NCBI GenBank assembly: GCA_951812785.1
Contig: OX638335.1
Span: 1 to 64,000 of the forward strand
Length of the DNA stretch: 64,000 nucleotides
Direction: 5' to 3'
From: an uncultured Gammaproteobacteria bacterium
GTDB lineage: Bacteria > Pseudomonadota > Gammaproteobacteria > UBA4575
A program made the translations under genes and the position numbers. This document shows positions 5,594-48,723 of the stretch, piece by piece. Within the stretch, counting starts at the first letter, position 1; the number at the start of each line of letters is the position of its first letter. Under the pieces are notes generated by a model. The model had not been told where the DNA came from. It was given only the letters and a program-made list of their open reading frames with translations, and searched no databases.

Positions 5594-6853
5594 ATGAGTG
5601 AAGAAAAAATAATAGTTGCAACTGATTTAGAAGATTTTGCTGAGGTTGATGTTATAGAGGTGCTTGTGTCACCCGGTGATTCGGTAGAGCCTAACCAACC
5701 TATAGTTACACTGGAAAGTGATAAGGCCATGATGAATTTTCCTGCGTCTGATACAGGCGTGGTAAAAAGTATAAGTGTCTCAGTCGGTGATAAAATAAAA
5801 CAAGGTGATGTGCTACTTGTCCTAAAGGTAGAACAACAAGCTAACGATACTCCAGATGAAATAAAAGCAGAGACTATAAATCAAGAAGAACTTGAAGCTA
5901 AGTTAAGTGATGGAGTACAGAATAATATAAAAGGCAACGCTACAAATGAAATCATTAATACAGACAGTGCTTATGCAAGTCCAGCAGTACGAAAGTATGC
6001 TAGTGAGCTTGGCATCGACTTAGAAAAGGTTGTAGGTAGTGCGCAAAATGGGCGAATAATGAAACAAGATGTACAGAGTCACGTACAAAAGTGCATATCA
6101 GGTGCAAGTGATAAACGAATTAGTAGTCAGCATTCTTTTCCAGATTTTAGTAAATATGGAGAGATTGAAGAAACACCACTTAATAAACTTAGGCGGATAT
6201 CCGCAAAACATCTTCATCATTCGTGGGATGTTGTTCCGCACGTCACACAATTCGATGATGCAGACATCACCGAATTAGAGTTAGCACGTAAACAACTTAA
6301 AGAAAGAGTTAAATCTCAAGGTTCTAAACTAACGTTGCTGCCATTCATAATGAAAGCCATGGTTAAATGCTTACAGGAACACCCAGACTTTAACAGTTCT
6401 ATTAATCAGAGTGTCACAAGTTTAACACACAAAAAATATTTTCATATAGGAGTTGCTGTTGATACTCCACGCGGTTTAGTTGTCCCAGTGATTAGAAATG
6501 TTGATCAAAAGAAAATAATTGAATTGGCTAAGGAGTTAATTGAGATTAGTTCGCGTGCGCGTGAAAATAAATTAACAGCAAAAGATATACAGGGTGGATG
6601 TATGACCATTACTAGTTTAGGCGGAATTGGTGGCCAGCACTTTACGCCTATTATTAATTTCCCAGAAGTGGCTATTTTAGGTGTATCTAGAAGCTATACT
6701 AAGTTGATTAAAAAAGAACAAGGAATTGTTGAACGTTTAATGTTGCCATTGTCATTAACTTATGATCACCGGGCAATTGATGGTGTTGCGGGAGCAAAAT
6801 TTACTACTAGTCTAAAGAATAAACTAAGCGACGTTTGGGCGCTGATGATATAG
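5594..6853 (+). CDS. aceF: Dihydrolipoamide acetyltransferase (PDH E2)
   Basis: This is the core acetyltransferase of the pyruvate dehydrogenase complex. At 419 residues it is short for the family in gammaproteobacteria because it has one lipoyl domain (residues 1-77, lipoyl lysine K44 in ESDKAMMNF) where E. coli has three. A glutamate/asparagine-rich linker follows, then the peripheral-subunit binding domain (128-165, ASPAVRKYASELGID). The catalytic domain (about 190-419) carries the DHRAIDG motif with H392 and D396. It lies just downstream of aceE and is presumably co-transcribed. Confidence 0.95.
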   Translation: MSEEKIIVATDLEDFAEVDVIEVLVSPGDSVEPNQPIVTLESDKAMMNFPASDTGVVKSISVSVGDKIKQGDVLLVLKVEQQANDTPDEIKAETINQEELEAKLSDGVQNNIKGNATNEIINTDSAYASPAVRKYASELGIDLEKVVGSAQNGRIMKQDVQSHVQKCISGASDKRISSQHSFPDFSKYGEIEETPLNKLRRISAKHLHHSWDVVPHVTQFDDADITELELARKQLKERVKSQGSKLTLLPFIMKAMVKCLQEHPDFNSSINQSVTSLTHKKYFHIGVAVDTPRGLVVPVIRNVDQKKIIELAKELIEISSRARENKLTAKDIQGGCMTITSLGGIGGQHFTPIINFPEVAILGVSRSYTKLIKKEQGIVERLMLPLSLTYDHRAIDGVAGAKFTTSLKNKLSDVWALMI

Positions 6854-6932
6854 CTGCGAATTTATAAAATAACAGCGATTTGATACAGTTAGTATCTAAA
6901 ATAGAGTTTAATGTTCCGAGAAACTAAATACG

Positions 6933-6963
6933 TTTAATATTGGAGCTTAGATCCGATATTAAA
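6933..6963. terminator. Hairpin between convergent aceF and the Fur-family gene
   Basis: Perfect 8-base arms TTTAATAT and ATATTAAA flank a further three-base pairing (GGA/TCC) around a short loop. It sits between two convergent genes, where a shared terminator is expected. There is no clear T run on either side, so a factor-independent terminator is only possible. Confidence 0.35.
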
Positions 6964-7018
6964 TCACCAGGAATTAATCTGGGATAGAGGCGGAAATAAA
7001 AAGTTGGATTTGAAAAGA

Positions 7019-7447
7019 TTAAGGTTGGCGTAAACGGACAATAACCTCTACGTCTTCTAATACAGTACCTACTGGTAATTCTGGTAGCTGCTCAATTCTG
7101 ATTTGGTCCGCTGGAATATCTTCTAGCATCCCTGTGTCCATATGATATAGATGGTGATGTTTATCTAGATTTGTATCATAGAACACTTTGTTGGGCTCGA
7201 TAATGACTTCATGCAGTAGGCCCTTTTTAGCAAAAAGGCCTAGGGTGTTATAGACCGTTGCTTTAGAGACTTCTTCGTTATCTTTATTGACCATTAACAG
7301 CACCTGCTCTGCGGACACGTGTTGCGCTTTAACAAAAAGAGCTTCGCCTATACGCACTCGTTGTTGAGTTGGGGTAATACCATAGGCACGCAAGCGCGCT
7401 GCAACATGCACGCTATCTGTACTGAATTTTCTCGGCGCTGAATTCAT
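7019..7447 (-). CDS. Fur-family transcriptional regulator, Irr-like
   Basis: This 142-residue protein has the Fur-family winged helix (SKATVYNTLGLF, residues 61-72) and the metal-binding middle with a DKHHHLYH motif (HHH at 97-99). It contains no cysteine at all, so the structural CxxC zinc sites of Fur and Zur are absent. The HHH run is the feature that alphaproteobacterial Irr uses for heme or metal sensing. It is convergent with aceF and co-oriented with thiO. Target genes cannot be inferred from this context. The family assignment is firm, but the Irr-like function is inference. Confidence 0.88.
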   Translation of the reverse strand: MNSAPRKFSTDSVHVAARLRAYGITPTQQRVRIGEALFVKAQHVSAEQVLLMVNKDNEEVSKATVYNTLGLFAKKGLLHEVIIEPNKVFYDTNLDKHHHLYHMDTGMLEDIPADQIRIEQLPELPVGTVLEDVEVIVRLRQP

Positions 7448-7549
7448 GGCGGCATTATAACCAGAATTTAGAATAAGTCTATTTTGCAGCCCATGTTTTC
7501 ATCAGAGGATTTGTCTATTTTATAAAGCAGTCACAATAATGGCCCGATA

Positions 7550-8614
7550 TCAGGTGAAATTGCTACTAGCATAACTGCGATCCTGAGTGCTTAGAGAATC
7601 ACCATTATCTAAAATCCATCCGCTAATAATATAAGCAGATTTTGGCGCCATGGCAACGCCGTATCTAAAATGTCCGCAATTTAAATATAAGCCTTTAATA
7701 TCGGGGTGAGGGCCAATGGTTGGTATATTTGCTGGAGATCCAGGTCTTAACCCTGCCCATTGGTGGGTAATTTCATAATCGTTTAATTCTGGAAGCATTG
7801 ATAGTGAGTTTTGCCACAAGATATTACGCGCAGAATCTGTAATGTGTTTGTTATAGCCGACATCTTCTAATGTGCTTCCCGCAATAATTAATCCATCTTT
7901 TCTAGGTATTAGGTAGTGTCCATCTTTATAGATTATATGATTGAGTAATCCTGGTACCGTTTGTATAGCAATGATTTGCCCTTGAATTGGTGTGATTAAG
8001 GGTGTGCGAATAAAATTAGTGGAATTTGCCAATCGTGGTAGCCAAGCACCGCTTGCCCATAAAACACTATTCGTTTGAATATCACCAATAGAAGTATTAA
8101 TGGTAGTGACTTGCTGCCCTGCAAACTGACAACTATGTACCGAGGTATTGTTGATTAAAGTGACATTGTTTTGTTGGAGATATTTTATAAGTGCCTTAAT
8201 TACGTTAGGCATTCTCACTTGTGCTATATCAGGAAGATGAAAGTGGGTTTTATGCAGACTGCTAATTCGTTGGTATGCGAGTTTATGGCTATTACACCAG
8301 CGCTTAATAGTGTCGTTACAATTATCTAAAACGGTTAAGCCACATTTCCAGTATTCAATATCAATATTCGTCAAGGGAAATAAATGCTTGGATAAATTAT
8401 AATAATCCTCGGATGAAGTAGCAGTGAGGGATAGTACCTCTTTGTTATAATTCCACGGTAGCAGTGGAGTAAGTATGCCGCCAGCTGCCCAAGAGCTTTC
8501 CTGACCAAAATCACTCCTATCTATTAGCGTTATATTTATGCCACGCTGCGTCAATAGATAGGCGCTATACAAACCTATTATTCCGCCGCCTACAATAACC
8601 AGATCTGGCTTCAT
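7550..8614 (-). CDS. thiO: Glycine oxidase ThiO (FAD-dependent)
   Basis: The 354-residue FAD-dependent amine oxidase makes dehydroglycine (iminoglycine) from glycine for the thiazole moiety of thiamine. The Rossmann dinucleotide motif VIVGGGIIGLYSA lies at residues 6-18. The family motifs SSWAAGGILTPL, QWAGLRPGSPANIPTIG and CGHFRYGVAMAP (C-terminal, flavin contact) are present. ThiS and ThiG lie about 850 bp away, divergently oriented beyond a MarR gene, which supports the thiamine role. Confidence 0.92.
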   Translation of the reverse strand: MKPDLVIVGGGIIGLYSAYLLTQRGINITLIDRSDFGQESSWAAGGILTPLLPWNYNKEVLSLTATSSEDYYNLSKHLFPLTNIDIEYWKCGLTVLDNCNDTIKRWCNSHKLAYQRISSLHKTHFHLPDIAQVRMPNVIKALIKYLQQNNVTLINNTSVHSCQFAGQQVTTINTSIGDIQTNSVLWASGAWLPRLANSTNFIRTPLITPIQGQIIAIQTVPGLLNHIIYKDGHYLIPRKDGLIIAGSTLEDVGYNKHITDSARNILWQNSLSMLPELNDYEITHQWAGLRPGSPANIPTIGPHPDIKGLYLNCGHFRYGVAMAPKSAYIISGWILDNGDSLSTQDRSYASSNFT

Positions 8615-8648
8615 TAAATTAGGTTGTTAGTTATTTGAATAAGTGAAC

Positions 8649-8718
8649 TGATAGTGCCGATTACTATCATATGAGGTAATGATTACGATTCGTAAAACAT
8701 TGTTAAATATCATTAACA
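8649..8718. promoter_or_regulatory. Two palindromes in the thiO/marR divergent promoter region
   Basis: At 8649-8669 the arms TGATAGT and ACTATCA flank seven bases. At 8701-8718 the arms TGTTAA and TTAACA flank ATATCA. MarR proteins bind palindromes of this size, so either could be the operator of the adjacent MarR-family gene. Binding is inferred from position and symmetry only. Confidence 0.35.
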
Positions 8719-8796
8719 TTTAATGCGTTCAAGTAATAACACGGTGATAATAAATCAGTTTAACAATAGATTAATGAATCAGGGGGGGTATAACAA

Positions 8797-9210
8797 ATGA
8801 TTACAGCTCGTGAGTTTAATAAAGAAATTGTACCTAAAAAATTGACTGATTTACGGTCGCCAGCAAAAGATCAAGCTAATTTATTAGTAGATTTAACGGT
8901 CATGTCTCGACAAGTAGGGTACTCCATAAGTAAAAAAATATCCCGTTTTGGTATCAACTATAACCTGTGGCAAGTATTAGTGACGCTTTGGAGCGAGCAT
9001 GCCGTTACACCAGCAGCAGTTGCTAAACACCTGCAAGTGGAACCGGCAACGATTAGTCGTTATTTAGACCAGTTAGAGTCACTTGAATACATTACTCGAG
9101 AGCGCAGCAAGACAGATCGGCGTGTGGTTGATGTTGTTTTGACGATTAAAGGAAATAAAGTTGTAAAAGCAGGTTTAAATGAATTAGATGAACTAAGTAA
9201 AATTTTATAA
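8797..9210 (+). CDS. MarR-family transcriptional regulator
   Basis: This 137-residue winged-helix protein has the MarR layout: an alpha-helical N-terminus, the HTH segment VTPAAVAKHLQVEPATISRYLDQLESLEYI (about residues 69-98) and the wing residues RSKTDRRVVDVVLT (104-117), the D-x-R signature of the family. A G-rich ribosome-binding stretch (GGGGGG) lies about 10 bases before the ATG. It is divergent from thiO and upstream of thiS-thiG, so control of thiamine genes is conceivable but not shown. There is no ligand-site evidence. Confidence 0.88.
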   Translation: MITAREFNKEIVPKKLTDLRSPAKDQANLLVDLTVMSRQVGYSISKKISRFGINYNLWQVLVTLWSEHAVTPAAVAKHLQVEPATISRYLDQLESLEYITRERSKTDRRVVDVVLTIKGNKVVKAGLNELDELSKIL

Positions 9211-9227
9211 AAATTTCCGATGAAATC

Positions 9228-9257
9228 ACCAATACCTGCAATGGATATTGGTTTTAT
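9228..9257 (+). terminator. Probable terminator after the MarR gene
   Basis: ACCAATA and TATTGGT arms, extended by CC/GG with one bulged A, close a six-base loop and are followed by a T-rich tail. It lies 18 bases after the marR stop. The same nine bases, gatgaaatc, occur on both sides of the hairpin (about 9219 and 9261). Confidence 0.5.
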
Positions 9258-9457
9258 TGCGATGAAATCAAAATTTTTCTATATAAGAGGGTATAGCTGA
9301 ATGATTATTGACCCGAAATATACCTCCTTATAACGCAAGTCAGGGCTTTGGGGCCTAATCTTGATACCACTATCAACCTTCTAAGGTTAAAATAGCTTTA
9401 GTAAGTACACAGACTTATCCTGTAAAATCATTAGCCGTCAAGGCGAGTAAAACTAAT

Positions 9458-9658
9458 ATGCAGATCGTATTGAATGGTCAGAATAGGGAAGTTATAGACC
9501 AATGCTCAATAGCTAAGGTATTAGAGATATTAGAGCTACAGAATCGAAAAGTAGCTGTAGAGGTTAACCAAGAGGTTATCCCGCGTACGCAACATAAGTT
9601 TTTTGTCTTGTCACGCGGCGATCAAGTTGAGATTATTCAGGCGGTAGGTGGTGGATAA
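9458..9658 (+). CDS. thiS: Sulfur carrier protein ThiS
   Basis: The 66-residue ubiquitin-like protein ends in the required Gly-Gly (AVGGG at the C-terminus). ThiF adenylates this end and converts it to a thiocarboxylate, which donates sulfur to ThiG. The start [12 protein letters not shown] and the length are typical. It precedes thiG by 44 bases. I looked for a TPP riboswitch in the 247 bases upstream and found none of its conserved THI-box blocks. Confidence 0.92.
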
Positions 9659-9702
9659 AGAGTCTTTATAAAATATACCCAATAATAGAAGAAACTAATC
9701 GA

Positions 9703-10500
9703 GTGGAAATTACACAAACTGCTTGGAGGCTTGGTGAACGAAGCTTTAATTCGCGATTACTGGTAGGTACGGGTAAATATCGAGATTTTGATCAGACCAG
9801 AGAAGCTATTATTGCTAGCGGGGCTGAGATTGTCACTGTCGCATTGCGGCGGACTAATATTGGCCAAGAAGCTGGGCAGCCGAACTTATTAGATTTTATT
9901 CCAGCAGATGAATTTACTATTCTTCCAAATACTGCTGGATGTTTTAGCTGCGAGGATGCGGTACGAGTGTGTAAGTTAGGTCGTGAGTTATTAGACGGGC
10001 ATTCTTTAGTAAAATTAGAGGTGCTGGCAGATAAAACCACATTATTGCCAAATGTAATTGACACCATTAAAGCTGCGGAGATTTTAGTTAAGGACGGCTT
10101 CGAGGTGATGGTCTATACCAACGATGATCCCATCATTGCTAAAAACTTAGAAGATACCGGCTGTGCCTCCATTATGCCGCTTGCTGCACCTATTGGTTCA
10201 GGCTTAGGTATCCGTAACCCATATAACATCGTTACCATTATTGAAAATGCCAAGGTCCCTGTCATTGTTGATGCAGGCGTCGGGACCGCATCCGATGCCG
10301 CGATTGCAATGGAGCTAGGTTGTGATGGCGTACTAATGAATACTGCTATAGCTGAAGCAACGCATCCAGTGACTATGGCTACAGCAATGAATCATGCAAT
10401 AGTCGCTGGCCGCTTAGCCTATCTTGCTGGCCGCATGCCTAAACGAAGATTTGCATCTGCTTCTTCTCCGATTGAAGACACGATCACAGCTAAACCTTGA
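9703..10500 (+). CDS. thiG: Thiazole synthase ThiG
   Basis: The 265-residue TIM-barrel enzyme condenses deoxyxylulose 5-phosphate, dehydroglycine and ThiS-thiocarboxylate into the thiazole phosphate of thiamine. Recognisable motifs are [24 protein letters not shown], the Schiff-base lysine in LVKLEVLAD (K104), the phosphate loop PIGSGLGI and [11 protein letters not shown]. Translation starts at GTG 9703. The stop overlaps the TTG start of trmB (TTGA), indicating translational coupling. Confidence 0.95.
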
Positions 10501-30912: not shown

Positions 30913-30928
30913 ATTTTTTAGTATAAAA

Positions 30929-32070
30929 TGTAGTAGCTCAGACCTGATCGTACCGTTACCGGTTATTGATAGGAGTCTGTCAGTTTAGATGTGAGCTAAA
31001 TTCTTTTCAGCCCAAATCAATTTACCATCCATTAACCTGTCCATGGGTATTCTACCATCGCCCATGTTGCCTTGATGAGTGCGTTCATTGTGATCAGTTT
31101 CTATCCAGTTGTCTTGATCTTTTGGTCAATCCTCCCTGGTTGAGTACCGTTTTTTCCTGAAGGTAATTTGATAAAACTCATTCAGAGATGCCATGGGTTT
31201 GCGGTGATCAATGTCGTTAATGGCCAGGTATCACCGATCGTCATGATGCTCCACGTGCCCACAATATTCTGTGCCTCTGTCCGTTAAACTACGTAGCATC
31301 GGCAAGGCATGCTTTTCAAAAAACGGTAGCACCTCATCAAAGAGTAGGTCTGCGGCGGTAATCGGCGTCTTAGTCGTGTAGAGTGCCGCAAAGGCGATCT
31401 TGCTGTAGGTGTCTACGAACGTTTGCGGGTATAGCCGACCAACACCTTTGAGGTGGCCTAAGTCACCAGGATGTGCCGTGTCAATCTCACCACAGGCCTC
31501 GTCATCCTGTTTCTCAAGGGCGGCGATCTGTGCATCGCTTAAGATAATGCCCTCCTTGGCAATTTCTTCTTCGAGTGCTTTGAGTCGTTTCTTGAAGTGC
31601 TCTAGAGTATGGCGCAGCCAAACGGAACGCACACCGCTACCAGCGATAAACACACCTCTCTTACGGAGTTCATTGCTGCTTCGATGTCGCCCAACCGCGG
31701 GCTGTTCAATCGCTGACGTAACCACTGCATGTGCTGTGGGTTCATCCACACGGTTTTTACTATTGGCTGTTCTACGACTCTTGTCAATCCGTGAGTCAAT
31801 GCCACCTTCTTCAACCCGCTGTTGATAACGATAGAATGTGTCTCGCGACACCCCCATGACTTGACAGGCGCTAGATACGTTGCCCAGTTCTTCTGCTAAG
31901 TTGAGCAAGCCCGCCTTGTGTTTAATGATTGGATTGTTAGTATGAAGCATGAGAGTTACCTGCCTTTTTGGTTTGATTTAAAGATTTCAACACCTTTATC
32001 AAAACGGGTAACTCTCGCTTTTGCAACCCTTGTGGATTGCTAATTGTCAGATCGGGTCTGAACTATTACA
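30929..32070 (-). mobile_element. IS481-family element, degenerate
   Basis: Both ends match as inverted repeats that start with TGT. The left end reads TGTAGTAGCTCAGACC, and the right end read inward is TGTAATAGTTCAGACC, with about 20 of the first 24 bases shared. The size, 1.14 kb, fits the IS481 family. No target-site duplication is obvious. A partial copy of the right end recurs at 40229-40253, beyond the restriction operon. The element marks the left edge of the accessory island, 16 bases after ctpA. Confidence 0.72.
30990..31950 (-). pseudogene. IS481-family transposase, broken
   Basis: The N-terminal HTH part (AGLLNLAEELGNVSSACQVMGVSRDTFYRYQQ) and the integrase core with IDTAHPGDLGHLKGVGR, FVDTYSKIAFAALY and SLTDRGTEYCG are clear. 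The frame stops near 31231 (DDR then TGA). The C-terminus continues recognisably to about 30990 in the same direction, with a further stop: YLAINDIDHRKPMAS, NEFYQITFRKKRY, WIETDHNERTHQGNMG. With at least two stops, this copy is inactive. Confidence 0.82.
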
Positions 32071-32076
32071 AATTAT
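32046..32076 (+). repeat. 31-bp direct repeat, left copy (IS481 right end)
   Basis: The segment beginning GTCAGATCGGGTCTGAACTA spans the right terminus of the IS481 element and six bases beyond. It matches 40229-40259 at 29 of 31 positions by my count. The two copies bracket the hsdM-hsdR operon. Confidence 0.75.
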
Positions 32077-32153
32077 CGCTTGCTAAACATTAAAAATCAG
32101 TCGATAAGACAGCTAGGGACAGGTATCAAACGTCTTCAAACAGGAATAACAGT

Positions 32154-33701
32154 ATGACCAGTATGCAACAACGCGCCGAACTGCAACGCCAAATCTGGCA
32201 AATTGCCAACGATGTGCGCGGCTCTGTGGATGGCTGGGACTTTAAACAATATGTTCTCGGCACGCTGTTTTATCGCTTTATCAGTGAAAACTTTGCCAAC
32301 TATATAGAAGGTGGAGATGAAGGCATTAACTATGCTGAGCTTGAAAACCATGTAATCACCGGTGACATCAAAGACGACGCCATCAAAACCAAAGGCTATT
32401 TTATTTACCCAGGCGAACTGTTCAGCAATGTATCCGCAAATGCCAACAACAACGAAAATCTAAACACCGACTTAGCCGCTATTTTTGCCGCCATCGAAAG
32501 TTCGGCCAGTGGCTATCCATCTGAAGTCGATATTAAAGGGCTGTTTGCGGATTTCGACACCACCAGCAACCGTTTAGGTAATACCGTAAAAGATAAAAAC
32601 ACCCGTTTAGCGGCTGTATTAAAAGGCGTAGAAGGTCTTAATATTGAACAGTTTGAAGAGAATGAAAACGACCTGTTTGGTGATGCCTACGAATTTTTAA
32701 TCTCAAATTATGCCGCCAATGCCGGTAAATCCGGGGGCGAGTTTTTCACCCCGCAACACGTCTCTAAGCTTATCGCCCAGCTTGCCATGCACGGGCAAAC
32801 CAGCGTCAATAAAATTTATGATCCCGCCGCCGGTTCTGGCTCGCTGTTGCTGCAAGCCAAAAAGCACTTTGATGCCCATATCATCGAAGACGGCTTCTTT
32901 GGCCAGGAAATCAACCACACCACCTACAACCTTGCCCGTATGAATATGTTTTTGCACAACATCAACTACGACAAGTTTAATATGATGTTAGGTAACACGC
33001 TAATAGCCCCTCACTTTGGCGATGATAAGCCCTTTGATGCCATTGTCTCTAACCCGCCGTACTCGGTAAAATGGATTGGCTTAGACGACCCAACCCTGAT
33101 TAACGATGATCGTTTTGCACCCGCCGGTGTACTAGCCCCTAAATCAAAGGCCGACTTTGCTTTTGTGCTGCATGCTTTGAGTTACCTATCCAGCAAAGGC
33201 CGCGCAGCGATAGTCTGCTTCCCCGGTATTTTTTACCGTGGCGGTGCCGAGCAAAAGATCCGCAAATACCTTATCGATAACAACTATGTTGAAACGGTGA
33301 TATCTCTGGCGCCTAACTTGTTTTTTGGCACCACCATCGCGGTGAATATTCTGGTGCTGTCCAAACACAAAACCGATACGACGACCCAGTTTATTGATGC
33401 CAGCGGTGAGGGGTTCTTTAAAAAAGAAACCAACAATAACGTCATGCTCGATAAACACATCGAAACCATTGTGGCCATGTTCGATAGCAAAGACAATGTC
33501 GAGCACGTTGCCCAATCAGTGGCCTATGAAAAGATAGCCGAGAACGATTACAACTTATCCGTAAGCTCTTATGTGGAGGCTAAAGATACCCGTGAGGTGA
33601 TTGATATTACTCAGCTTAATGCCGAGCTTAAAACGACTGTTGCGAAAATCGATCAACTGCGTATGGATATTGATGCCATTGTTGCGGAGATTGAAGCATG
33701 A
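32154..33701 (+). CDS. hsdM: Type I restriction-modification methyltransferase subunit
   Basis: This N6-adenine methyltransferase of a type I R-M complex has 515 residues. The N-terminal HsdM_N domain ([33 protein letters not shown]) is followed by the N6_Mtase domain with SAM motif [15 protein letters not shown] (about residue 222) and catalytic motif IV NPPY (about residue 300). It resembles the type IC group, as do its neighbours. It is the first gene of a five-gene operon and overlaps hsdS by ATGA. Confidence 0.95.
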
Positions 33702-34858
33702 GGGAGCTGAGTTACATGGAAAGGCTGCTGGGTGGTGCTGAGGTTAGTTGGCTACCATTAGGTGAAGTGACACAATATGAACAGCCCACTAAATACCTTG
33801 TAAAAACAAAAAACTATGATGATGCGTTCGAAACGCCTGTTCTGACGGCAGGTAAAACTTTTATTCTTGGATACACAGATGAAACTAACGGAATTAACAA
33901 GGCATCAGAGGCACCTGTAATCATTTTTGATGATTTTACAACGGCTAGTAAATGGGTTGATTTTGACTTCAAAGCCAAATCATCAGCAATGAAAATGATC
34001 ACGTCAAGTGATGATACTAGGTGCATTCTAAAATATGCTTATTATTGGATGAATGCTCTACCTAGTGATCTAATTGATGGCGACCATAAGCGTCAATGGA
34101 TTAGCAATTATTGCAACAAAGAAATCCCAATCCCATGCCCAGAAAACCCAAAAAAATCACTGGAAATCCAAGCCGAAATCGTCCGTATTTTGGACGCATT
34201 TACTGCGCTTACCACCGAGCTTACCACCGAGCTTACCACCGAGCTTACCGCACGTAAAAAACAATACAACTACTATCGCGACCAGTTGTTGAGTTTTGAA
34301 GAAGGGGATGTAGAGTGGAAAACGTTGGGGGAGGTGGCCGTAATTGGTACGGGTAAACATGATACGAAGGATGCCATGGAGGACGGTGATTTCATCTTTT
34401 ATGCCCGCGGTCGTGATCCGTTAAAGCTAAGCGTATATGATTTTGATGAAACTGCAATTATCACCGCGGGAGATGGCGCTGGGGTAGGTAAAGTTTATCA
34501 CTATGCCCAAGGGAAGTATGCACTGCATCAGCGAGCATATCGTATCGTCCCAAGCGAAGTTATGAATCCTAGATATGTATTTCACTATATATCTGCATTT
34601 TTCTACGCTTACATCCAAAAAGCATCTGTGAGTTCATCGGTTACCTCACTTCGTCGGCCAATGTTTATTAATTTCCCGATACCAGTTCCATCACTCGATG
34701 AACAAACCCGCATGGTCACCATTCTAGATAAATTCGATACCTTAACCACCTCCATCAGCGAAGGCCTGCCCCGCGAAATTGAATTACGCCAAAAGCAATA
34801 CGCCTATTATCGTGATTTTCTATTGAGCTTCCCTAAGACAGAAGAGGTAGCGGTTTAA
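33698..34858 (+). CDS. hsdS: Type I restriction-modification specificity subunit
   Basis: This subunit determines the bipartite DNA target. In the 386 residues there are two target-recognition domains: TRD1 (about 15-150) ends with [12 protein letters not shown], and TRD2 (about 205-345) ends with [18 protein letters not shown]. The central conserved region holds LTTE three times (residues 171-182), followed by [16 protein letters not shown]. The second conserved region ends with [16 protein letters not shown]. This repeat position is where type IC enzymes such as EcoR124 vary TAEL copy number and so the spacer length. It starts inside hsdM (ATGA). Confidence 0.94.
34208..34243 (+). repeat. 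Three tandem 12-bp units in hsdS
   Basis: CTTACCACCGAG is repeated exactly three times in frame, followed by a partial fourth unit CTTACC. Each unit encodes Leu-Thr-Thr-Glu. Slippage by one unit would keep the frame and change the distance between the two recognition domains. Confidence 0.92.
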
Positions 34859-34859
34859 G

Positions 34860-36029
34860 ATGAGTAATACGCTAACGGAAATAGCCCAACAGTTAAAAGC
34901 TAAAAATAAGAAAGTTCAGTTGATATATGCCTTTAACGGTACCGGTAAAACGCGCCTTTCACGTGAGTTTAAACAGCTCATTGCGCCAGGAGATGATACT
35001 GGTGCTAGTGATAGGGAACAGTTAGAGTCGTCACGTCATAAAATCCTCTATTACAACGCCTTTACTGAAGACTTGTTTTATTGGGATAACGACTTGTCAC
35101 TGGATGTCGAGCCCAAGCTAAAGATTCAACCTAATTCATTTACCGATTGGGTATTACAAGAGCAAGGGCAAGATAGGAATGTTATTGCCAACTTTCAACA
35201 ATATGCAGATGATAAGTTAACTCCTCGTTTTAATCCGGAGTACACGGTTAAAGACGAGGATGGGAAAGAGGTTAAGGTCAAGGCATTTTCAGAAGTGACT
35301 TTTTCGCAAGAGCGCGGCAGCGATGAAATTTCAGAAAATATAAAAATATCCAAAGGTGAAGAGAGTAATTTTATTTGGAGTATTTTCTATACGCTACTCG
35401 ATCAAGTCATTGGCGTATTAAGTGTTGCTGAAGAGAATGACCGTGAGACAGATCAGTTTAATCAGTTGGAATATGTGTTTATCGATGACCCGGTTAGCTC
35501 TCTAGATGAGAATCACTTAATCCAGTTGGCGGTAAATCTGGGGAAAATGATTAAGGATAGCGAGTCTGGCCTAAAGTTTATTATCTCTACCCATAACCCA
35601 CTCTTTTACAATGTACTTTACAATGAGGTTAATGCGAAGACGGGCTATATTCTAAGCCGGTTTGACAATGGCACTTTTGAACTTGAAGAAAAGAAAGGTG
35701 ACTCCAACAAAAGTTTTTCGTATCACTTGCATATTAAAAGGTTAATTGAACAAGCCGTAGAAAAAAATAATGTGCAGCGCTACCATTTTGCACTGCTTCG
35801 TAACCTGTATGAGAAAACGGCTAATTTTCTTGGGTATAAGCGCTGGTCTGAATTATTGCCGGGTGATCAAAAGGCTTATGCCAATCGAGTTATGAACTTT
35901 TACCCTCATAATACTTTGTCAAATGAAGAGGTTTCAGAACCAACAGCGCCAGAGAAAGAGATGGTTGGGCTTTTACTTAGAAATCTGAATGAGTTTGGTT
36001 ACTGGCAACAAGGAGGAGGTAATGATTGA
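34860..36029 (+). CDS. prrC: PrrC-like anticodon nuclease (restriction-linked toxin)
   Basis: An ABC-type ATPase of 389 residues with a C-terminal nuclease region. Walker A is FNGTGKT (25-31), the ABC signature-like segment is SKGEES (164-169), Walker B is YVFIDD (205-210) followed by PVSSLDE, and the switch histidine is H245 in ISTHNP. Near the C-terminus R314, E318 and H350 (RNLYE, then YPH) have spacings of 4 and 36 residues, the same as the Arg320/Glu324/His356 triad I recall for E. coli PrrC (396 residues). Its place between hsdS and hsdR is also that of prrC. PrrC cuts tRNA-Lys at the anticodon when phage disables the R-M enzyme. The tRNA target here is inference. The gene starts two bases after the hsdS stop codon. 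Confidence 0.87.
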   Translation: MSNTLTEIAQQLKAKNKKVQLIYAFNGTGKTRLSREFKQLIAPGDDTGASDREQLESSRHKILYYNAFTEDLFYWDNDLSLDVEPKLKIQPNSFTDWVLQEQGQDRNVIANFQQYADDKLTPRFNPEYTVKDEDGKEVKVKAFSEVTFSQERGSDEISENIKISKGEESNFIWSIFYTLLDQVIGVLSVAEENDRETDQFNQLEYVFIDDPVSSLDENHLIQLAVNLGKMIKDSESGLKFIISTHNPLFYNVLYNEVNAKTGYILSRFDNGTFELEEKKGDSNKSFSYHLHIKRLIEQAVEKNNVQRYHFALLRNLYEKTANFLGYKRWSELLPGDQKAYANRVMNFYPHNTLSNEEVSEPTAPEKEMVGLLLRNLNEFGYWQQGGGND

Positions 36030-37074
36030 TTTCACGACACCTCATTTAAGCCTGCAAGACCAAACCACGGAATTTCTGCTGTATACCGCGCCCAATGGCG
36101 AGGTAAAGGTTGAGGTGCTGTTAAGCAATGAAACCCTTTGGTTGACTCAGGCGCGCATGGCGGAGCTGTTTGGTGTGCAGCGGCCAGCGATTACCAAACA
36201 CTTAAAAAATATCTTTGAAAGCAATGAGTTAAAAGAAGATATGGTGTGTTCCATTTTGGAACATACCACTGAGCACGGGGCCATTCCGGGGAAAAAACAA
36301 ACTCAAAACGTAAAATACTACAATCTGGATGCGGTAATCTCAGTGGGGTATCGCGTCAATTCTGCACAGGCAACCCAGTTCCGTATTTGGGCGACCCAGC
36401 TAATCAAAGAATATATCATCAAAGGCTTTGCCATGGATGATGAGCGCCTTAAAAACGGTCAGTACTTTGGTAAGGATTACTTTAACGAGCTGCTGGAGCG
36501 GGTGCGCTCTATTCGCGCCAGTGAACGGCGAATTTATCAACAGATTACCGATATTTTTGCTGAATGCAGTATTGATTACGACCCCAAATCTGAAACCACT
36601 CGTTTGTTTTACGCCCATGTGCAAGATAAGTTTCATTTTGCCATTACCGGCCATACCGCGGCAGAAATTATTTCACTGAAGGCCGATGCCAGTAAACCCT
36701 TGATGGGCATGACGACCTATAAAAATGCACCTGATGGTCGAGTGCTGAAGTCAGATTCAACCATTGCCAAAAATTATCTGGCTGAGGCGAATATTAAAAA
36801 GTTGGAACGTGCTGTGTCGGCTTACTTTGACTATATCGAAGGGATTGTTGAGCGCCGTCACATCTTTACCTCAGAGAGCTTTGCCGATAGCGTGAATAAG
36901 TTCCTGAACTTTAATGAATATCAGGTTCTGGAAGGCTACGGAACCGTGACCAGCAGGCACGCAAAGCAAAAAGCCATTGCTGAATATGACAAATTCAACA
37001 AGCAACAACGCATCGAATCTGATTTTGACCGAGTGATCAGAAAGCGGTTACTAAAAAAGGACACAGAGGAATGA
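36022..37074 (+). CDS. RhuM-family protein
   Basis: This 350-residue protein belongs to the Virulence_RhuM family (named from Salmonella SPI-3). It was found repeatedly in R-M and accessory loci, and its biochemical role is not established. The N-terminal part has an HTH-like segment ([26 protein letters not shown]) followed by [26 protein letters not shown]. The C-terminal part is helical and charged. ATG 36022 follows a strong GGAGGT site and lies inside the end of prrC (8-base overlap). It ends with ATGA overlapping hsdR. Its position between a toxin and the restriction subunit suggests a modulator, but that is speculation. Confidence 0.88.
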
Positions 37075-48296: not shown

Positions 48297-48723
48297 GCTA
48301 TCTCACAATAATATTGAAGCGTATTTATGGACAATGAAATTACTGTAAAACGTATTATCTAATCGAGACGATAATCTTTACTTTGTAGACAGTAAGACCA
48401 CCATACTAACGGTGGCCAGTCAAATGGCAAAAGAGCATTACATTCCCAATATAAGCAGAGATGTGTTTATCGACAGCAGTGAAAATGGACAAGATATAAA
48501 GCGTCAGCTGAAATATTTGAAGAAGATAGCCATGCGTAAAGGTTTTGCAGTGGCTATAGGACACCCTTACCCGTCAACCATTAAACTGCTAAGTGACTAT
48601 CTGCCTACCCTGCTAGAACACAATATTGAGGTCGTACCAGTTACTAAGCTGATTGAATTGCATACACAACAGCAACAAAGGCTTAAGTTAACTTCTCGTT
48701 TCCTAATAAAAGTAAATAACTAG
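48297..48723 (+). pseudogene. yibQ: Divergent polysaccharide deacetylase (YibQ) 3' remnant
   Basis: The frame reads NNIEAYLWTMKLL, a TAA stop near 48346, then NRDDNLYFVDSKTTILTVASQ, ISRDVFIDSSE, FAVAIGHPYPSTIKLLSDYLP and VEVVP-type residues, the C-terminal half of the YibQ/DUF610 divergent polysaccharide deacetylases. The 5' half is missing. Homology begins right after the helicase stop codon, so the island joint is here. In related genomes yibQ directly follows ctpA, which here ends 17.4 kb to the left. Confidence 0.8.

Follow-up and report, generated by a model that had tools for sequence, protein, structure and literature searches.

The anticodon nuclease PrrC of Escherichia coli carries a triad of Arg320, Glu324 and His356, besides Asp287 and Asp222 (residue numbers as given in PMC2610378 and PMC3014915). 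As described in the latter source, which also names a PrrC box of 15 residues, it recognises the sequence of the anticodon, the modification of the wobble base (via D287) and the anticodon stem, a stable stem being inhibitory; the tRNA-recognition sequence varies among PrrC proteins and, because it does so, their targets may vary too (PMC3014915). PrrC170 of Klebsiella quasipneumoniae is described as protecting against T1 and T7, arresting growth and targeting tRNA-Lys (PMC11555353). PrrC-like genes accompanied by restriction-modification (R-M) genes and RhuM have also been reported, RhuM being proposed as a toxin (Anantharaman 2013, PMC3710099); the link between prrC and rhuM has thus been in print since 2013.

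The window, that is, the whole stretch of 64,000 nucleotides which was analysed, contains at 34860..36029 on the plus strand an open reading frame without internal stop. It specifies a protein of 389 amino acids which we consider, with a probability of about 0.87, to be an anticodon nuclease of the PrrC family, set within its type IC R-M operon. A sequence-only reading of this DNA had proposed a profile search and an alignment to PrrC as checks. The former gave a match to the PADLOC PrrC model over residues 3–384 [483 bits, 1.3e-145], together with PHROG 23661 [565 bits] and Pfam AAA_13 [58 bits]; NCBIfam profiles gave no match at E 0.001, and searches by sequence for relatives of solved structure returned none that was convincing (best E 0.77 in one and 0.08 in another, with Rad50 at 0.096). 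Since the PHROG family matches strongly, the PHROG library must include copies that are counted as viral. A phage source of the gene was nevertheless rejected, as a search of 50,697 phage records with this protein gave zero matches.

The same reading had seen an ABC-type ATPase with Walker A, a signature-like SKGEES, Walker B and a switch His, and all of these were recovered on the plus strand by alignment. Walker A (NGTGKT, residues 26–31, with K30) lies at 34935..34952, the signature-like SKGEES (residues 164–169) at 35349..35366, Walker B with the D-loop (IDDPVSSLD, residues 208–216, D216 corresponding to D222 of the E. coli homologue) at 35481..35507, and the switch or linchpin His245 at 35592..35594. 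They are followed by a putative tRNA-recognition segment, KKGDSN (residues 278–283, 35691..35708), and by R314 and E318 of the putative anticodon nuclease triad (35799..35813). The third triad residue, H350, ends the stretch R343-x6-H350 (35886..35909), which fits the HEPN motif Rx4-6H (PMC3710099). Pfam searched with residues 291–389 gave one unrelated match only [E 0.17].

Alignment was made to P0002, a 396-residue "anticodon nuclease" from an E. coli plasmid, which shares 61% identity with the window protein over the full length; P0002 serves as a stand-in for the PrrC of the original prr strain. It carries R320, E324, H356, D287 and D222, that is, the numbering published for E. coli PrrC, with the triad and the spacing that the sequence-only reading had named. 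R314, E318 and H350 of the window protein align with R320, E324 and H356, and D281 aligns with D287; Walker A is closer to the N-terminus in the window protein (K30 versus K46). Of 5426 E. coli genomes six carry the P0002 gene at 99–100% identity, four of them on the chromosome and two on a plasmid. The spacing of the triad (E318 at +4 and H350 at +36 relative to R314) is weak evidence when taken alone, since 473 of 20,000 shuffles of the protein contain an R/E/H trio so spaced. It is homology that carries the assignment to PrrC, as judged from sequence comparison, and not the spacing.

Conservation was followed among the best 80 of 513 confirmed loci (genome contigs, 60–77% identity); since only these were taken, the counts describe close relatives. 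The alignment has 81 rows, namely the best 80 loci plus P0002, and the window makes 82. In these 81 rows E318 and H350 are present throughout and R314 in 80 (Cys in L053). Among the same best 80 loci and P0002, N26, G29, K30 and T31 occur in 81/81 and G27 in 78, S164, E167 and E168 in 81, S169 in 80, K165 and G166 in 79, and D209, D210, P211, D216 and His245 in every row; R343 occurs in 80. Position 281 is Asp in 76 of the 81 and Gly in five. Just before the catalytic His the window has P349 where Ser is commoner, as do 14 of these 81 relatives. Among the 82 sequences (best 80 of 513, P0002 and the window), 76 have the triad residues spaced at +4/+36, two at +4/+38 and four at +4/+39.

Matches to the window protein were found in 113 plasmid records, 105 of them with at least 80% query coverage. 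The six plasmid loci which were inspected all have hsdM and hsdS before the gene and hsdR after it, a Salinivibrio plasmid having in addition a small HTH gene within the run between hsdM/hsdS and hsdR; the gene is labelled anticodon nuclease in two of the six and AAA family ATPase in four. A seven-sequence alignment took in plasmid copies that are more distant; here R314, E318 and H350 were invariant and D281 was variable, one of the distant copies (L007) being without the tRNA-recognition segment.

An AlphaFold2 model of the window protein [pLDDT 77, pTM 0.71] was built from 71 sequences, namely 70 of the best 80 loci plus the window (L019, L030, L032, L046, L057, L058, L059, L066, L069 and L073 being omitted by choice); all 71 match the PADLOC PrrC model. 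The model shows a Rad50/SMC-like ATPase head, residues 1 to about 285, and then a helical C-terminal region. Rad50 heads are its best PDB matches [5da9_B, Z 12.3, rmsd 5.1, 231 aligned], and the structure matches span mainly residues 1–290, the ATPase part. R314 and E318 are placed within helix 307–324, and H350 follows helix 337–345 in a weak stretch (block mean pLDDT 63 and 57). Of what a prediction of the C-terminal region had been expected to give, the position of the triad in a helical region outside the ATPase head was obtained; a HEPN match was not, no HEPN protein being named among the 50 matches listed in either whole-model search, in which the ATPase part dominates. The predicted position of the triad agrees with a HEPN nuclease, although it is no proof of one.

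The gene is part of an operon with the order hsdM-hsdS-prrC-rhuM-hsdR, all five genes being open and on the plus strand. HsdM (32154..33701, 515 aa) possesses NPPY and DPAAGSG motifs [TIGR00497, 639 bits]. HsdS (33698..34858, 386 aa) matches Pfam Methylase_S in two stretches [94.8 bits], and its central region holds three exact 12-bp repeats (34211..34246) which specify TTEL three times. RhuM (36022..37074, 350 aa) matches PF13310 [335 bits, scanned with a longer start at 35989] and PADLOC PDC-S05 [485 bits]. HsdR (37071..40187, 1038 aa) possesses TGSGKT, DEAH and ELKK [TIGR00348, 687 bits; PF12008, 245 bits], and its EcoR124_C domain marks the system as type IC, the kind to which PrrC is tied. 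In keeping with the description of the R-M operon as active-looking, the three hsd genes are open with their motifs. Overlaps are of 4 nt (hsdM/hsdS), 8 nt (prrC/rhuM) and 4 nt (rhuM/hsdR), with a gap of 1 nt between hsdS and prrC. The gene had been placed between hsdS and hsdR; it does adjoin hsdS, but rhuM intervenes before hsdR. Just downstream of hsdR a 120-aa ORF (40464–40826) resembles the middle of HsdS [best E 1.3e-7] and is perhaps a leftover specificity cassette.

Of the best 80 of the 513 loci, 74 gave a match to hsdM, 79 to hsdS, 77 to hsdR and 71 to all three. The other nine lack one or two hsd genes, and in each of them the contig stops short of a complete copy of what is missing; in one of the nine, L041, a further ORF that by eye is like a Bro-N protein lies in the last 856 bases. 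These subunits were counted by presence, and in L012, L019, L030 and L065 the matches to hsdM or hsdR are split or partial. Upstream of prrC, a TxEL-type run of three units was recognised in 24 of the best 80 loci and one of two units in 37, the remaining 19 showing none.

The host genome, a single contig of 2,158,385 bp, yielded two further pieces of the operon. One (L110, G000:C1:1251000-1270000, about 5797–8089) comprises a second hsdM and the first half of hsdS. It is identical in DNA to window positions 32034–34338 except for one 12-bp unit, TTEL being present twice as opposed to three times in the window. The second half of this hsdS is different and has an in-frame stop, with no prrC or hsdR after it. 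One chromosome thus holds two hsdS copies which differ by one spacer repeat, and in EcoR124 such a change of repeat number alters the recognition gap by 1 bp (PMC3874165). The other piece (L109, G000:C1:677000-696000, 8154–9846) consists of 76 hsdM codons at 97% followed by a copy of rhuM, and adjoins a different type I R-M system. Upstream of hsdM in the window there is a short IS481-like transposase ORF (31231–31950, minus strand; its 146 bits fall short of the family cut-off, 224), which lies within the duplicated segment. Near the second hsdM copy (L110, 16795–18928) are ORFs which are candidates for type I-C Cas7 and Cas8 genes.

The operon most likely came on a defence island (30913–48411), flanked on one side by ctpA and on the other by what is left of a polysaccharide-deacetylase gene. 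We conclude this because the relatives searched gave no PrrC match and because ctpA and the deacetylase gene, adjacent in same-genus relatives, are split in the window. At E 0.001 none of 54 relatives (4 of the same genus, 14 of the same family and 36 of the same class) matched PrrC, the window locus adding an open PrrC system to this genome. In three of the four same-genus relatives ctpA adjoins the deacetylase gene, the fourth giving no match; one of the three (L113) has a deacetylase of 288 aa which overlaps ctpA, and in the other two the open frame runs to 270 and 299 aa. A distance of 17.5 kb separates ctpA in the window from a 103-aa remnant of the deacetylase gene.

The island also specifies, at 42497–48283, a helicase/nuclease-like protein of 1928 aa [PADLOC PDC-S37, 1116 bits; Hhe, 543 bits], which from these profile matches is a further candidate defence gene. 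Elsewhere in the genome (L002, 7–2190, near G000:C1:802530) there is an RloC-like protein [AAA_13, 529 bits] with a CLFC zinc-hook-like motif, its gene being followed by that of a calcineurin-like phosphoesterase which presumably resembles SbcD. The host thus holds both PrrC and RloC-like genes; two RloC strains among 73 are likewise described as having PrrC (PMC2610378).

Genes of the rhuM type were found in 24 of the best 80 of 513 prrC loci, in three different slots, three of the 24 being partial or divergent; the counts refer to the best rhuM match per locus, and L038 carries a second one. The slot between prrC and hsdR holds a full-length rhuM in 10 of these best 80 loci (one of the ten being L050, whose contig stops behind rhuM); in three more the rhuM in this slot is partial or divergent. 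A more distant rhuM (37–62% identity) lies between hsdM and hsdS in eight of the 80, and one of 44–45% identity after hsdR in three. Other occupants of the prrC-hsdR slot are a Bro-N protein (L022), a DUF1016/YhcG protein (L012, L038, L058) and, in L048, a DUF4143 ATPase beside a 37-residue rhuM remnant. The presence of rhuM with prrC in 24 of the best 80 loci offers a tractable operon in which to test what RhuM does.

By analogy with E. coli PrrC, the window protein would be made together with the HsdMSR complex and kept silent by it. Should a phage product disable restriction while the complex sits on unmodified DNA, the ATPase domain would then drive a conformational change and the C-terminal domain would cut the anticodon loop of tRNA-Lys, whereupon translation would stop and the phage be blocked. 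A latent tRNA-Lys anticodon nuclease of this kind, released when restriction is disabled, is well supported by homology, and the two-layer defence that had been proposed for this strain gains support from the full-length homology, the ABC motifs, the triad, the recognition residue, the type IC operon and a host tRNA-Lys(UUU). A gene for the latter, with the anticodon loop CTTTTAA (RNA CUUUUAA), was found by a looser pattern search; the pattern GACTTTTAATC had one match in the host genome, at a place where ARAGORN called no tRNA. That the protein would cut tRNA, and be set free when restriction fails, is inferred from what is described for E. coli PrrC and for PrrC170, a distant relative. As PrrC170, at 35% identity to EcoPrrC, targets tRNA-Lys (PMC11555353), such a step across 61% identity seems reasonable. 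The additional rhuM gene could change how the PrrC system is regulated.

This last point might be carried further, RhuM being a working third part of the system, either a DNA-binding regulator or a second effector, which alters the timing of PrrC release. We regard this as unlikely. rhuM is coupled between prrC and hsdR, and the same slot recurs as counted above among the best 80 of 513 loci; the N-terminal half of RhuM weakly resembles phage antirepressors [PHROG 463, 21 bits], and its model has a weak likeness to DdrC, a DNA-binding protein from Deinococcus [Z 7.7, rmsd 16.4, 183 aligned; Foldseek E 2.3e-3]. However, prrC abuts hsdR directly (at most 60 nt) in 55 of the 77 loci with hsdR in reach (best 80 of 513), so rhuM is not needed; rhuM occupies other slots and leaves remnants, as a passenger would, and the model is poor [pLDDT 69, pTM 0.47], values of Z 7–8 being common without a clear relative. 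The likeness to DdrC and the antirepressor match are a hint of DNA binding over protein modification. More doubtful still is a fuller version, by which RhuM is a third layer, a DNA-binding protein on or near the restriction complex that tunes or replaces PrrC release, the prrC-hsdR junction being a swap site for accessory factors (RhuM, Bro-N, DUF1016/YhcG).

A target other than tRNA-Lys appears improbable for this PrrC-family nuclease. Such a target might be suggested by the variation in recognition sequence between PrrC proteins and by the host tRNA-Lys itself, whose anticodon stem ends in G31-C39, a stable stem being inhibitory to the E. coli enzyme (PMC3014915); yet the K-x-G-D-S-N segment is retained in the window protein, including D281 (D287 in E. 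coli), and the distant PrrC170 still targets tRNA-Lys (PMC11555353). Least probable of all, and scarcely to be expected, is a silent or decaying copy, in which the genes read as open and yet either PrrC or the R-M enzyme does not work. The locus does lie on an island beside the short IS481-like ORF, and the operon has two partial copies at other places in the genome, both of them broken. Those copies, however, lack prrC and the window hsdR (the only close match of hsdR in the genome is itself), and in the window the five genes are open with every R-M and PrrC motif that was looked for. We therefore return to the reading of a PrrC-family anticodon nuclease within its type IC operon. The prrC gene had been rated striking, a judgement we do not share: it is an intact-looking, ordinary copy of a known and experimentally tested defence family, PrrC systems being common and already described. 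RhuM and the pair of hsdS repeats are of moderate interest, that of prrC itself being low.

Compared with the described systems, the window shares with EcoprrI PrrC of E. coli the order M-S-PrrC-R, the ABC motifs, the R320/E324/H356 triad, D287 and a type IC HsdR. The HsdS of EcoprrI has three TAEL repeats (PMC3874165) where that of the window has three TTEL repeats; the window differs in the insertion of rhuM before hsdR, and the 61% identity was measured to the plasmid stand-in P0002. The gene of PrrC170, like that of the window protein, accompanies a type I R-M system, but as described PrrC170 is 35% identical to EcoPrrC and its four named genes include no rhuM (PMC11555353). RloC shares the ABC-ATPase and the R-x3-E...H nuclease, and differs in a coiled-coil/zinc-hook (CXXC) insert, a length of 658–897 aa and a rare linkage to R-M genes (PMC2610378). 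The window protein, at 389 aa, has no cysteine and therefore no zinc hook, on which grounds identity with RloC was rejected; in a profile comparison with the RloC-like protein of the same genome only the Walker B region aligned (49 columns, probability 88). Lastly, the neighbourhoods of PrrC, R-M and RhuM already reported (PMC3710099) show the same combination, of which the window is one more case, with slot counts now added.
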